From Lachnospiraceae bacterium (GTDB lineage Bacteria; Bacillota; Clostridia; Lachnospirales; Lachnospiraceae), in assembly GCA_017503735.1 (NCBI GenBank), contig JAFVSN010000043.1:1-64000 (forward strand): a DNA stretch of 64,000 bases, given 5' to 3'. A program made the translations under genes and the position numbers. Below are positions 23,947 to 57,922 of this stretch, in pieces. The notes under the pieces were generated by a model, which did not search any database, was not told the DNA's origin, and saw only the letters and a list, made by a program, of their open reading frames with translations. How positions within the stretch are numbered: the first letter of the stretch is position 1; the number at the start of each line of letters is the position of its first letter.

Positions 23947-24163
23947 TTTTGAATGTATCGTTTTTTTTAATTTCGTGTAGGATGTTAGCTTTTCTTATTG
24001 CTCCGTTTTCCTACTGCAATGCACGGGCAGGACGTCCGGGCAAGACTCGCACGCGGCACGGATGGCGCGTAAGAGTCGGTTGCATGTCGTTTCCTTACAC
24101 ATTCCCGGAGCAATTAGAAAATCTTACATCCGAAACCTATGACAAAAAACGATACATTCAAAA
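23947..24163. repeat. Family A nested palindromic element, copy A1
   Basis: The outer arms TTTTGAATGTATCGTTTTTT (from 23947) and AAAAAACGATACATTCAAAA (to 24163) are complementary, as are inner arms GGATGTTAGCTTTTCTTATTG and CAATTAGAAAATCTTACATCC (each 21 bases, one mismatch region; given here as GGATGTTAG..TTATTG and CAATTAG..ACATCC). The core at 24006-24095 has GGGCAGGACGTCCGGGCAAG and ACGCGGCACGGATGGCGCGT, then GTCGGTTGCATG. Copy A2 at 40.7 kb shares the inner arms and core, but not the outer arms. It is inside the ileS leader, between the T-box terminator and the start codon. No protein is encoded. Confidence 0.7.
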
Positions 24164-40680: not shown

Positions 40681-40970
40681 ACGCTTGCGCACATTTCGCA
40701 ACCAAAACTTATTAAGAGACTTGTTCCCGCGAGTATTTTCTTTGATTTGTGTAAAATGTTAGTTTTTCTTATTGGCTCATACCCTCACAACAATGTTCAG
40801 ACAGGAGGTCTGAACAAGGTGACGCGCGCCATGGACGGCGCGTTGGAACCGGTTGTGTCCCCTTCTATCAAACTAAAATGAGACAATTAGAAAAACTTAC
40901 ATTTGTAACGATGAAAAGAAAATACTCGCGGGAATAAGTCCCTTTTATGTTTCAAAATGTGCGCAAGCGT
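40681..40970. repeat. Family A nested palindromic element, copy A2
   Basis: Three concentric arm pairs: ACGCTTGCGCACATTT (40681-40696) with 40955-40970, a perfect 16; GACTTGTTCCCGCGAGTATT (from 40719) with AATACTCGCGGGAATAAGTC (to 40940), nearly perfect; and TGTTAGTTTTTCTTATTG with CAATTAGAAAAACTTACA. The core holds TTCAGACAGGAGGTCTGAA (40796-40814), CGCGCCATGGACGGCGCG (40825-40842) and AACCGGTTGTG. The innermost arms and core match copy A1; outer arms differ. It lies between two convergent genes and encodes no protein. Confidence 0.72.
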
Positions 40971-54081: not shown

Positions 54082-55833
54082 ATGGAAACCGTTACTTTAA
54101 AGATTAATGGTATGACCGTTACCGCACCAAAGGGCGCTACTATCTTAGAGGCAGCAAGAATCGCTCACATCGAGATTCCGACGCTTTGCTACTTAAAGGA
54201 TATTAACGCAATCGGCGCTTGCCGTATTTGTGTGGTAGAGGTAAAAGGCGCAAGAAGCCTTGTAGCTTCCTGTGTATACCCGGTAAACGAGGGTATGGAA
54301 GTATTCACAAATACTCCTAAGGTATTAGATTCCAGAAGAAAAACTTTGGAACTTATTCTTTCCAACCATGACAGAAAGTGTCTCTCCTGCGTACGCAGCG
54401 GCAACTGTGAATTACAGAAGCTCTGTAAGGACTTAAAGGTAGAGTGTGAAAACGTTTATGACGGTGAAGCAAACACCTACGAGTTAGATGAGAGCGCTGT
54501 TCATATGGTTCGTGATAATAACAAGTGTATCCTTTGTCGCAGATGTTCCGCTGTCTGTGAAAAGGTACAGGGTGTTGGCGTAATCGGCGCTAACGAGCGT
54601 GGTTTCAAGACCAACATTGCATCCGCATTCGACATGGGCCTCGGCGATACCGCTTGTGTATCCTGTGGTCAGTGTATCGCTGTCTGTCCGACCGGTGCTC
54701 TTTACGAGAAGGATTCCACCGATGAAGTTCTCGCTGCAATCGCAGACCCGAACAAGAAGGTATTCGTTCAGGTTGCTCCGGCTGTACGTGCTGCTCTCGG
54801 TGAAGAGTTCGGTTACCCGATGGGAACCGGTGTACAGGGCAAGATGGCTGCTGCACTTCGTCGCATCGGCTTTGATAAGGTATTCGATACCAACTTCTCT
54901 GCTGACCTTACCATCATGGAAGAGTCTCACGAGTTCCTTGACCGTGTACAGAACGGTGGCGTATTACCGCTCATCACTTCCTGTTCTCCGGGCTGGATTA
55001 AGTACTGTGAGCACTACTTCCCGGATATGACCGAGAACCTTTCTTCCTGTAAGTCTCCGCAGCAGATGTTCGGTGCTGTGCTTAAGACCTACTACGCTGA
55101 GAAGGAAGGCATTGACAAGAACGATATCGTATCTGTCAGCGTAATGCCGTGTACCGCTAAGAAGTTCGAGCTTACTCGTGACGATCAGGCTGGCGCAGGT
55201 GTTGCAGATGTAGATATTTCCATCACCACCAGAGAACTTGCAAGACTCATCAAGCGTCTCGGTATCACCTTCAACACCCTTCCGGATGAAGAGTTCGATT
55301 CTCCGTTAGGTTCCGGTACCGGTGCTGCAGTAATCTTCGGTGCTACCGGCGGTGTTATGGAGGCAGCTCTTCGTACCGCAGTTTGGAAGCTTACCGGTGA
55401 GAAGGACGGCACCCCGATCGAGTTCACCGAGGTTCGTGGTACCGAAGGTATCAAGGAAGCTACCTACGAAGTTGCAGGCATGAAGGTGAACGTTGCAGTT
55501 GCTTCCGGCCTGAAGAACGCAAAGGAACTTCTTACCAAGGTTCAGAACGGCGAAGCTAACTACCACTTCATCGAAATCATGGGTTGCCCGGGTGGTTGTG
55601 TAAACGGTGGCGGTCAGCCGCAGGTTGACGCATCCGTACGTAACTTCACGGATATCCGTGCCGTACGTGCTAAGGCTCTCTACGATTACGATGCAGCTAA
55701 CACGCTCCGCTTCTCTCACGAGAATCCGGATGTGAAGGAGCTTTATAAGAGCTATCTCGGCGAGCCGGGTAGCCACAAGGCTCATGAGCTTCTCCATACG
55801 ACCTACGTAAAGAGAAAGATTCATAATCTGTAA
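54082..55833 (+). CDS. hndD: [FeFe] hydrogenase catalytic subunit
   Basis: Makes or consumes H2. 583 residues. N-terminal [2Fe-2S] ligands C36, C47, C50, C64; a His-ligated 4Fe-4S motif LSNHDRKCLSCVRSGNCELQ; two 4Fe-4S motifs CILCRRCSAVCE and CVSCGQCIAVCPTGALY. The H-cluster motifs are intact: LITSCSPGWIKYCEHYFP near 303, SVMPCTAKKFELTRD near 355 and EIMGCPGGCVNGGGQP near 500. A short C-terminal maturation-type domain (YKSYLGEPGSHKAHELLHTT) follows. Last gene of the operon; AGGTAAAAC region precedes ATG. With HndABC it forms an NADH/ferredoxin bifurcating enzyme. Equivalent to Thermotoga HydA. Confidence 0.96.
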   Translation: METVTLKINGMTVTAPKGATILEAARIAHIEIPTLCYLKDINAIGACRICVVEVKGARSLVASCVYPVNEGMEVFTNTPKVLDSRRKTLELILSNHDRKCLSCVRSGNCELQKLCKDLKVECENVYDGEANTYELDESAVHMVRDNNKCILCRRCSAVCEKVQGVGVIGANERGFKTNIASAFDMGLGDTACVSCGQCIAVCPTGALYEKDSTDEVLAAIADPNKKVFVQVAPAVRAALGEEFGYPMGTGVQGKMAAALRRIGFDKVFDTNFSADLTIMEESHEFLDRVQNGGVLPLITSCSPGWIKYCEHYFPDMTENLSSCKSPQQMFGAVLKTYYAEKEGIDKNDIVSVSVMPCTAKKFELTRDDQAGAGVADVDISITTRELARLIKRLGITFNTLPDEEFDSPLGSGTGAAVIFGATGGVMEAALRTAVWKLTGEKDGTPIEFTEVRGTEGIKEATYEVAGMKVNVAVASGLKNAKELLTKVQNGEANYHFIEIMGCPGGCVNGGGQPQVDASVRNFTDIRAVRAKALYDYDAANTLRFSHENPDVKELYKSYLGEPGSHKAHELLHTTYVKRKIHNL

Positions 55834-55845
55834 AATTTAGGCTTT

Positions 55846-55873
55846 TGGGGCCGCGCTGATGCGCGGCCCTTTA
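55846..55873 (+). terminator. Terminator of the hnd operon
   Basis: GGGCCGCGC, loop TGAT, GCGCGGCCC, then TTTATG, 14 bases after the hndD stop. Confidence 0.85.
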
Positions 55874-56070: not shown

Positions 56071-56409
56071 TACCATTGCAACTCGTAATATCTCCATTCT
56101 CATGGTACTGATTTTGACCCTTCACGAGATTTTACCATTGCATTTGGAAAAATATCCTTTATCATGGTACAAATTTTCTTGTCATTTTTATTTTTACCAT
56201 TACAAACATCAAAAGCTCGGTTCTCATGGTAAAAAAAACAGGATTTTTCATGCTTACGCACGAGAAATCCTACTCAAAATACCTTTTTCACAGCAAATCA
56301 CTAGTTTTTGTACCATTGGAATTGTATAAATCGTGATTCTCATGGTAAAATCTCAAATCCACTCTAAATTTGTACCATTCAAAACATCAAAATCCGATTT
56401 CTCATGGTA
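56071..56409. repeat. Phased array of alternating inverted half-sites (TACCATT / CATGGTA)
   Basis: Five units, each exactly 37 bases, begin TACCATT and end CATGGTA (four of them TTCTCATGGTA or TCTCATGGTA): 56071-56107, 56133-56169, 56195-56231, 56311-56347 and 56373-56409. Spacers are exactly 25 bases except the 79-base gap between units 3 and 4. Half-site centres alternate 30 and 32 bases apart. The inner 19-20 bases and the spacers are not conserved. It lies between convergent genes, and a minus-strand terminator occupies the 79-base gap. Not a CRISPR array: the constant parts are only 7-11 bases. Confidence 0.75.
56231..56271 (-). terminator. Terminator of the flavodoxin operon, inside the array
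   Basis: Minus strand AGGATTT and AAATCCT pair with an inner GTGC/GCAT stem and run into TTTTTTTT. It would end minus-strand transcription after units 5 and 4. Confidence 0.75.
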
Positions 56410-56437: not shown

Positions 56438-56503
56438 CTATTTCTTACGTTTCATCTTCGCAACCATCACCGGAGCAAACAATGCTGCCAAGTACTTCTT
56501 CAT
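56438..56503 (-). CDS. Possible 21-residue amphipathic/membrane peptide
   Basis: ATG 56503 to TAG gives MKKYLAALFAPVMVAKMKRK plus one more lysine: basic start, hydrophobic middle and a strongly basic tail, like small membrane peptides or type I toxins. AGGGGCT lies five to seven bases upstream, inside the stop region of the flavodoxin gene (8 bases separate stop and start), so translation would be coupled. Too short to judge by codon bias; could be chance. Confidence 0.4.
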   Translation of the reverse strand: MKKYLAALFAPVMVAKMKRKK

Positions 56504-56511
56504 GATAGCCC

Positions 56512-57063
56512 CTATTCATTCTCCTTTAAATACCGCAACAACGGTTCCAAACTCCTCTTATCCGTCCAATCGCATTTTTGTCCCTTTGCTCCCAGAAGCG
56601 CCCTTTGCCACGGTTCAAACTCCTCCGGATTTTGCTTTGCCACTGCCTTTTGTAACATCCTGCAGAGGGTTCTGTGTGTAAAACTCATCTTATCTTCATC
56701 CCATGCGCCGCGACAGTAAAACAACGGAATCCGTTCCATCGCGTCTTTAAAATGCACCTCTCTCGCCTGCATAATAGCTTTCTCATCATAAGGAGATGCA
56801 CCTACCGCAAATACCGCTATTTTCTTATCCGACAAAAGGTTGATATTCTTCTTTAAAAAATGCAAGCCCAAAATTCCCGATGCATACACACCGCCTCCGA
56901 GAACAATAACATCATAACCTTGCACCAAAGACACCGTAGCCTTCTTTGTTTCCATACAGTCGTAGCCGGTTTCCTCCTGCAACCAGTCTGCATATTTCTT
57001 TGTTGCTCCGTATTTGGATTGATATAAAACAATACCTTTTCCCATATTTTCAAACCTCTCCAT
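56512..57063 (-). CDS. Flavodoxin-domain protein
   Basis: 183 residues from ATG 57063 (AGAGGAAG); ATG 57045 (MGKGIVLYQ) is another possible start. KGIVLYQSKYGATKKYADWL is the flavodoxin FMN phosphate loop, GYDVIVLGGGVYASGILGLH is the second binding stretch, and IAVFAVGASPYDEKAI follows. Resembles the Flavodoxin_5/HemG-like class. The C-terminal 60 residues are basic and end PLLRYLKENE. Third gene of a MarR-controlled cassette with a second flavodoxin at 57924. Confidence 0.85.
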   Translation of the reverse strand: MERFENMGKGIVLYQSKYGATKKYADWLQEETGYDCMETKKATVSLVQGYDVIVLGGGVYASGILGLHFLKKNINLLSDKKIAVFAVGASPYDEKAIMQAREVHFKDAMERIPLFYCRGAWDEDKMSFTHRTLCRMLQKAVAKQNPEEFEPWQRALLGAKGQKCDWTDKRSLEPLLRYLKENE

Positions 57064-57076
57064 GTTTATCTTCCTC

Positions 57077-57922
57077 TTACTCACCATACGATATTGCATG
57101 AATCACACCGTCAAAATAGACAAAATCTCCATCCTGATAATTCCATATCGCTTTGAACTTCGTAGGATACTTGATTCCTGTCTCAGAAACACGGTATCCG
57201 TCACATACCGCTGACCAAGGAACGTATTCCATAGTACCATCCTTATTTGATACACCTCTGTCATTCGTTGTAAAACAAACATATTCATACGCCTCGTTAA
57301 AGGCAAATATACCGCTTGCGGTTTGACCTCCGTACGTAATTGTAGCTTTCACTTCATATGCACTTATTTCTTCGAGAACAATAAAATCCTGGAGCAAGAT
57401 TGCAGGCGCAAATAAGCTTTCCGCAAGATATGTCACCAGACACGCCTTGTCCATTTCCGGTCCTGTCTGATGAAATAAGTTGATTGCCTTTGCAATCTGT
57501 CCTCTCATTCCTCCGATACCATTTTGATAATAATCATATCCCTCAAAAGGAGTACCAAACATATGACTGTCAATCCGAGCCATACGGCAAGGTTCTACCA
57601 CAAAGTTATATTGCGTATAATCAATTTTTTGTGCCGGTCCTGATTTTCCCATCATAAAATCCACATCCCGATACTCCATCTTCAAATAACTCATTTGAGA
57701 TGTTCCGATATATCCGCAGCAATCCATATAACACTGAATTGCTTTCGGCAAATGTAAAAAATCTTCTTTTTTAAATAAACGCCCTTGCACTTTAAGCTCG
57801 GCATTATTCTTTAGCGACTCTATATCCTTCAAAAATCTTGTTTTCAACGGCGAGTACGGAATATAAAACCACACAAAAATCAATCCGATAATCACCAAAA
57901 AAATTCCAATTCCTATAAGCAT
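57077..57922 (-). CDS. DUF6544/DUF6920-like membrane-anchored protein
   Basis: 281 residues. One N-terminal membrane helix (LIGIGIFLVIIGLIFVWFYI) and a 250-residue beta-rich domain: LPKAIQCYMDCCGYIG, QYNFVVEPCRMARIDSHMFG, VTYLAESLFAPAILLQDFIV and YPTKFKAIWNYQDGDFVYFD. I associate these motifs with the DUF6544 family, of unknown function. It sits between two flavodoxin genes, two bases from one and 14 bases from the other, so the three are expressed together. Confidence 0.72.
   Translation of the reverse strand: MLIGIGIFLVIIGLIFVWFYIPYSPLKTRFLKDIESLKNNAELKVQGRLFKKEDFLHLPKAIQCYMDCCGYIGTSQMSYLKMEYRDVDFMMGKSGPAQKIDYTQYNFVVEPCRMARIDSHMFGTPFEGYDYYQNGIGGMRGQIAKAINLFHQTGPEMDKACLVTYLAESLFAPAILLQDFIVLEEISAYEVKATITYGGQTASGIFAFNEAYEYVCFTTNDRGVSNKDGTMEYVPWSAVCDGYRVSETGIKYPTKFKAIWNYQDGDFVYFDGVIHAISYGE

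Follow-up and report, generated by a model that had tools for sequence, protein, structure and literature searches.

Dispersed arrays of alternating, helically phased half-sites in one Lachnospiraceae genus: candidate scaffolds for a DNA-binding protein

The array and its surroundings

The features of the array are presented in Table 1 as they lie in the window, that is, the whole stretch of 64,000 nucleotides that was analysed. Upstream of the array is a gene (54082-55833, plus strand) which, by sequence reading, we take to be an [FeFe]-hydrogenase-like gene. The downstream neighbour (56512-57099, minus strand) is presumably a flavodoxin-like gene, by reading of the same kind. A small open reading frame of 21 amino acids (MKKYLAALFAPVMVAKMKRKK; 56438-56503, minus strand) with a GGAGAA-like ribosome site separates the flavodoxin-like gene from the array; of the loci compared, only copies of the window locus have it. 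An Rfam search found two TwoAYGGAY RNA elements elsewhere in the window (23973-24138 and 40747-40911) and no family at gathering score within the array.

Table 1. Positions of the array, its units and the nearby hairpin in the window
Feature	Position	Strand	Description	Basis
Unit 1	56071..56107	+	half-site > TACCATT at 56071, half-site < TCATGGTA ending at 56107	exact pattern
Unit 2	56133..56169	+		exact pattern
Unit 3	56195..56231	+		exact pattern
Irregular gap, 79 nt	56232..56310	.	85 bp between half-sites, about 8 helical turns	
Unit 4	56311..56347	+		exact pattern
Unit 5	56373..56409	+		exact pattern
Entire array	56071..56409	.	10 half-sites; plan of 3 units + gap + 2 units; mixed type	
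Terminator-like hairpin (intrinsic type)	55847..55870	+	3' of the hydrogenase-like gene, 200 bp upstream of the array	terminator scan

The preliminary description of this DNA, made from the letters of the sequence, reported five units in strict alternation, and an exact pattern search of the window recovers all five as TACCATT-N23-CATGGTA, each of 37 nt, against 0.01 expected by chance. The gaps between them measure 25, 25, 79 and 25 nt, which agrees with the reported spacer of exactly 25 bases in three of four cases. The starts of the core, read as TACCAT or inverted as ATGGTA, are exactly 31 bp apart, one 85-bp step excepted. The copies in the window are 63-79% identical, with the conservation at their ends and with variable unit interiors. 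The array was described, correctly, as no ordinary tandem repeat (VNTR), although some arrays of the family, L374 for one, contain recent near-identical copies.

A minus-strand terminator had also been placed in the 79-nt gap. Folding and sequence reading do find there an imperfect hairpin of 10+3 bp, with a T-run after it on the minus strand. The strict terminator scan, however, does not list it, and in L372, the similar array of genome G306, it reports nothing in the gap; the hairpin stands, and its identity as a terminator is doubtful.

Distribution, half-site types and spacing

The window array is one of 10 in its own genome, G000 (3.08 Mb, 58 contigs), all of which alternate at 31-32 bp. 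Ten genomes of one Lachnospiraceae genus were searched with a pattern of the core with three half-sites, giving a total of 35 arrays and 387 half-sites in six genomes. There are 10 arrays in G000 (102 half-sites), 14 in G306 (171 half-sites), 5 in G308, and 2 each in G302, G304 and G115, those of G115 both near contig ends; the array-bearing genomes other than G000 and G306 hold 13-57 half-sites each. The largest arrays have up to 18 half-sites. The 35 arrays were picked from the pattern matches, leaving out a single pair (L030, contig C51) and 11 further isolated pairs in G000 (C2, C8, C23, C28, C37:23116, C43, C46:9300, two in C56, C53 and C57). These isolated ATGGTA..TACCAT pairs outside arrays number 12 against about 3-4 expected from window shuffles, about threefold. 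Their spacings are scattered over 28-47 nt, and codon usage is a possible cause.

The remaining four genomes, G301, G303, G305 and G307 (completeness 72-90%), gave no match. Absence from close relatives, or a half-site spacing not conserved where the pattern occurs, had been named in advance as telling against the proposed pattern. Among the ten genomes, the arrays are absent from four, but the spacing is conserved wherever they occur. The absence indicates that the array system is dispensable, or was recently gained or lost.

A scan of 397 genomes of the family, G000 and G115 among them, found no array in the 395 genomes outside the genus, of which G248 alone has one isolated match. The single matches in G054, G188, G224 and G248 are isolated and not among the best 14 of 231 loci that were chain-scanned. 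Among the 115 stretches listed from the named genome collection, three stretches contain arrays, all from two Lachnospiraceae MAGs, RGIG7215 (once) and RGIG4203 (twice). By match places and counts these are G302 and G306 of the genus set, and the matches listed include no array outside the genus. A phage origin was rejected: 45 + 67 viral-contig stretches contained no array, and the longest chains among the best 14 of 231 loci had 5 half-sites, mismatches included. In a literature search, the motif is described nowhere among the matches listed, and the listed 8-mer matches are unrelated by title.

Three half-site types are found, in which the core TACCAT is extended, differently per type, to about 8-11 bp. 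The TACCATGA type comprises 20 arrays; 116 of 116 unit interiors start with GA and end with TC, although one end site in L026 lacks the GA, and with secondary preferences the type extends to about TACCATGANAA. In the TACCATT-like type (13 arrays), position 7 is T in 81% of unit starts, with only 10 of 18 in the G308 array at locus D (see below). The third type is a polar mixture, represented by the window array and L372 of G306, in both of which the '>' half-site is TACCATT in 5/5 and the '<' half-site is TCATGGTA in 5/5. The consensus of the preliminary description, with TACCATT on the left and CATGGTA on the right, is therefore exact in the window but belongs to a minority type (2 of 35 arrays). 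All three types coexist in G000 and in G306, while inside one array the type is nearly uniform or, in the mixed type, strictly polar. The A+T fraction is 0.88 in unit centres and about 0.51 in spacer centres, so that units and spacers can be distinguished.

The 6-bp core flips orientation every 31-32 bp, that is, every three helical turns. Over the 35 arrays there are 337 within-array steps of 29-33 bp, with a mean of 31.41 across the unit and 31.31 across the spacer, as obtained by a chain search that limited steps inside runs to 29-34 bp and took core sites with at most one mismatch. In a recount using exact core sites and no spacing rule, 268 of the 313 consecutive pairs are 30-32 bp apart. 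Of 43 longer pairs, many of which are 62-64 bp steps across one decayed half-site, 41 lie no more than 1.6 bp from a multiple of 10.5 bp (30% expected). The two phase exceptions (119 and 196 bp) and one 146-bp step lead to a core site outside the array. Several of the arrays are orthologues, so that these counts do not represent independent observations.

A single out-of-register gap occurs in fifteen arrays. It measures 43, 63, 73-75 or 84-85 bp, which at 10.5 bp per turn comes near 4, 6, 7 or 8 turns. The gap follows the third full unit in 14 of these arrays, L376 being the exception. Two of the gaps contain an extra exact core site that is off alternation but in phase: a flipped half-site at 32 bp in L219 (63-bp gap), and a site at 62 bp, then 22 bp, in L376 (84-bp gap). 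In several gapped arrays the spacing is almost symmetric around the gap, and two arrays from separate loci, L220 and L221, share the palindromic series 31,31,32,31,32,74,32,31,32,31,31. At locus C the gap of G306 (63 bp) exceeds that of G000 (43 bp) by 20 bp, about two turns. Since even the irregular steps are whole turns, the half-sites face the same side of the DNA. A chance origin of the array was rejected on the expectation in the window, the family-wide scan and the spacing recount.

Shared loci, gene neighbours and possible mobility

Four loci, A to D, are common to several species, and L025/L219 represents a fifth shared locus. The proteins adjoining the array are 98-99.6% identical at locus A, where the neighbours are presumably rplA and rplJ by sequence reading, 97.6 and 86% at locus B (pheT-ECF sigma), 90 and 78% at locus C (PadR-sigma), and 98.6 and about 83-89% at locus D (aminotransferase-268-aa gene). 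Gene names at loci B, C and D are from family (Pfam) scans. The rplA-rplJ intergenic region was measured in seven genomes. It has 980-997 bp where the array is present (G302, G000), and without array 310-372 bp (G115, G301, G308) or 650-715 bp (G305, G303).

In nine aligned array pairs, L025/L219 and the pair of the window array with L372 included, identity is 92.7-98.8% in the half-sites versus 57.4-64.8% between them; the half-sites were defined from one partner, and their identity is biased upward, the arrays having been detected by their half-sites. An earlier measure on 5 pairs, which scored the stretches between half-sites by whichever of two anchorings fitted better, also points to conserved half-sites in drifting spacers. 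Whether spacers are conserved, a check proposed at the outset, can thus be answered: they drift yet stay alignable, while half-sites are nearly invariant. The unconserved unit interiors and the drifting but alignable orthologous spacers also bear out the earlier statement that this is not CRISPR.

At locus D, species differ in half-site type over the entire array. GA stands at positions 7-8 in every half-site in G000 (14/14), G306 (18/18) and G302 (14/14), and in none in G304 (0/13), G115 (0/7) and G308 (0/18). The 268-aa gene, which has a PD-(D/E)XK-like match and is not claimed as the binder, adjoins the array in G000, G306, G302, G304 and G308. Neither gene nor array was found at this locus in G303, G301 and G307, and in G305 and G115 the contigs end before the position of the gene. 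In G302 (L228:3721-4526) this gene is split into two open reading frames; it is unsplit in copies from other species.

The arrays are intergenic by simple ORF calls. Their flanking genes are unrelated and include those for PFOR, the phenylalanyl-tRNA synthetase beta subunit, GARS, a PmbA/TldD-like protein, an ABC transporter, GNAT, NUDIX, a HemN-like radical SAM protein, OAD beta, glycosidases, sigma factors and others. A conserved flanking gene as binder was dismissed, since the neighbours are unrelated. The orientation count took in 25 of the 35 arrays, with flank genes assigned by hand and orthologues included. Both neighbours were assigned for 20 arrays: 7 are flanked by convergent genes, 12 by tandem genes and 1 by divergent genes; by 17 distinct loci the numbers are 6, 10 and 1. 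Most arrays therefore follow a gene 3' end, and in 11 of 30 flanks a terminator-like hairpin separates the array from the gene end. At tandem loci the purine-rich strand of the spacers often follows the direction of the neighbouring gene, loci C and E being exceptions; the purine fraction is 0.67 in L023 and L031, and 0.28 on the plus strand in L219 and L228, beside minus-strand genes.

The neighbours bear on the possibility that these are operator arrays of a conventional regulon, in which a transcription factor controls the adjacent genes. The array can be near the next start codon at tandem loci, for example 42 bp in L031, and that of rplA-rplJ is upstream of a TTGACA..TATAGT promoter-like sequence. 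Several neighbours are themselves regulators, of the ECF sigma, PadR, penicillinase-repressor and AraC types. However, the neighbours have no common function, arrays between convergent genes outnumber that between divergent genes, and usual operators are expected to hold fewer sites than the 18 per array reached here. This explanation seems rather improbable.

Partition sites offer another model. In this model the arrays would be centromere-like sites of the kind of sopC of plasmid F, spread across the chromosome, and a ParB-like protein would bind them; the available text of the source describes F parS likewise as tandem inverted sites (PMC6238139). Yet two array-rich genomes have 10 and 14 arrays, the arrays are missing from four of ten genus members, and Pfam scanning (40 entries) of 37 distinct nearby genes gave no ParA or ParB match. 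We regard partition as very unlikely.

A chain of small stem-loops had been suggested as an alternative to a protein scaffold; it could be a transcribed RNA acting in mRNA stability, in termination or as a structured RNA. The half-sites are inverted repeats, and spacers at many tandem loci (exceptions include C and E) have a purine bias along the gene direction. The RNA fold of the window array is better than those of shuffled copies (z -6.1; -4.1 with the half-sites kept), and two of the array's five units fold well singly (z -3.3 and -2.2). This strong fold is the counter-case, and is taken as a local feature to which the gap hairpin contributes in part. In the folding controls, which covered 8 of the 35 arrays, L024 has z -2.7 with half-sites kept, but the other six range from -1.4 to +0.9 and are little or no better than such controls. 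Within-unit flanks in the 20 TACCATGA-type arrays are less complementary than unrelated pairs (0.27/0.25 vs 0.32/0.32), and the 387 half-sites have no excess stem stability (-0.02 +/- 0.08 kcal/mol inside, +0.21 +/- 0.06 outside). For mirror-placed half-sites, the outer flanks are slightly more alike (0.335 vs 0.319) and the inner ones are not (0.249). In addition, the arms of the mixed arrays pair no further than 6 bp by consensus, hairpins need no helical spacing across spacers, and a terminator-like hairpin precedes the array in 11 of the 30 flanks counted above. The stem-loop alternative is thus unsupported and extremely improbable.

No other array-only match between loci with unrelated flanks is as strong as that of the window array with L372 (L372:4546-4886), which has 69% identity over 350 bp (E 4e-46). 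The two arrays have the identical plan of three units, gap and two units, the gap of L372 being 84 bp, and the alignment stops 3-4 bases beyond the array on either side. Between half-sites their identity is 0.578, versus 0.422 on average (sd 0.041) in 474 non-orthologous pairs. Part of this likeness is shared by type, because values of 0.54-0.55 also occur in a few further pairs of mixed or TACCATT-like arrays. As the likeness covers the array only, arrays may move, or the surroundings may have been rearranged. In G308, the arrays L383 and L384 are a partly duplicated array at two places with some flank in common, and L374 contains recent tandem units that are near-identical.

Some repeated sequence was observed beside the arrays. 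A repeat of about 110 bp (GGGGCTGTCGCATAAATGAAATGCACAGCCC...) stands beside both L383 and L384, possibly a dispersed repeat or a segmental duplication. L377:1-150 (G304 C8) and L372:4900-5221 (G306 C37) share sequence beside arrays, at contig ends (133 bp, 94%), which by sequence reading we take to resemble an IS3-type insertion sequence. By eye, the 45-nt array flanks have no common mobile-element flank. In G306 (C13, C37, C48), G115 (C33, C73) and G000 (C25) an array lies no more than about 1 kb from a contig end, which suggests that arrays or adjoining repeats break assemblies.

These observations touch on an explanation by BIME/REPIN-like non-autonomous repeats, spread by a transposase that recognises their ends and lacking a host function. 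The array-only likeness of the window array and L372, the recent units of L374 and the partly duplicated array of G308 would suit such repeats. Alternation, extragenic place, regular spacing, species-specific types and hybrid arrays are all known of BIMEs, as far as the available part of the source goes (PMC2817692). Dispensability across the genus, together with possible mobility, keeps this reading alive. Against it, no stem-loop is found in or around the half-sites overall, arrays are kept at orthologous places with conserved half-sites in drifting spacers, and single-strand transposition offers no obvious role for the helical phasing of the irregular gaps. Isolated inverted pairs, moreover, are few in G000 and scattered in spacing. 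On balance we consider transposase-spread repeats unlikely.

A proposed scaffold and its relation to known systems

We propose that the arrays are probably dispersed, genus-specific double-stranded sites for a putative sequence-specific protein aligned on one face of the DNA. The scaffold for a same-face binding protein that the preliminary description put forward thus gains indirect support as a candidate, from the phasing in six genomes, irregular gaps included, from the conserved half-sites in drifting spacers and from the whole-array type differences at locus D. Same-face spacing despite lost register, taken with those half-sites and type differences, leads us to infer a cooperative sequence-specific binder. 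Pfam scans of the nearby genes and comparison of the flanks found no binding protein for the arrays. The window array and L372, alike up to the array ends but set in unrelated flanks, would suit a mobile or selfish element as well.

In the proposed arrangement, a protein with at least two specificities would sit on each half-site, and neighbouring protomers would touch along one face to form a regular nucleoprotein fibre or wrap. The likely role, put forward with less assurance, is an architectural one: at gene ends the arrays could insulate the chromosome, constrain it or bridge it. Because the arrays lie between unrelated genes, mostly beside a gene 3' end, such a role is probably to be preferred over the control of one gene.

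More tentatively, the arrays could represent a new class of chromosome-architecture element. It would combine one-face alternating arrays, a fibre-forming protein family with at least two coexisting specificities, polar mixed arrays, whole-array switches between species and the relocation of arrays as discrete units. This broader proposal is possible rather than probable.

If there is such a protein, its geometry can be read from the sites beforehand: protomers would alternate in orientation every three turns along one face, and half-turn errors would be excluded. The arrays would then be a sequence-addressed bacterial chromatin fibre with known positions, whose presence differs between close relatives, and the effects on gene expression, supercoiling and chromosome folding would be directly comparable between those relatives. 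The coexisting half-site types would provide a natural series for the study of protein-DNA co-evolution.

Among known systems, the repeat-spacer look and the period of about 62 bp resemble CRISPR. However, these arrays have no constant full-length repeat, the half-sites are inverted, and the spacers are inherited and drift. Most similar are BIME/REP arrays and the centromere arrays of plasmids. In the text available, BIMEs are extragenic, regularly spaced alternating elements with species-specific types and hybrid arrays, and each REP is an imperfect palindrome, usually in more than 100 copies per genome (PMC2817692). The present arrays are like them in all these features of place, alternation, spacing, typing by species and hybrids. 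They differ in having about 8-11 conserved bases, no stem detectable overall and steps of whole helical turns; the internal REP palindrome, which can form a stem-loop, is missing.

The par genes adjoin the centromere of plasmid F, whereas none was found among the scanned array neighbours. This centromere, sopC/parS, has twelve 43-bp repeats with 16-bp inverted repeats at constant pitch, according to the accessible text of the source (PMC6238139). The predicted sites described here similarly form tandem arrays of inverted sites at constant pitch. The plasmid has a single such locus, in contrast to up to 14 arrays per genome with half-sites 31 bp apart and a free interior. In parS of pSM19035, omega (ParB) occupies heptads, short direct and inverted sites, along the DNA (PMC9499535, available part). 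Those heptads are contiguous, whereas the array half-sites are three turns apart and strictly alternating. A distant parallel is the NRE of proV, where, in the part of the source available, two identical phased high-affinity sites for H-NS about ten turns apart nucleate a bridging nucleoprotein (PMC5418058); in place of those two sites, the present arrays offer up to 18, one every three turns.
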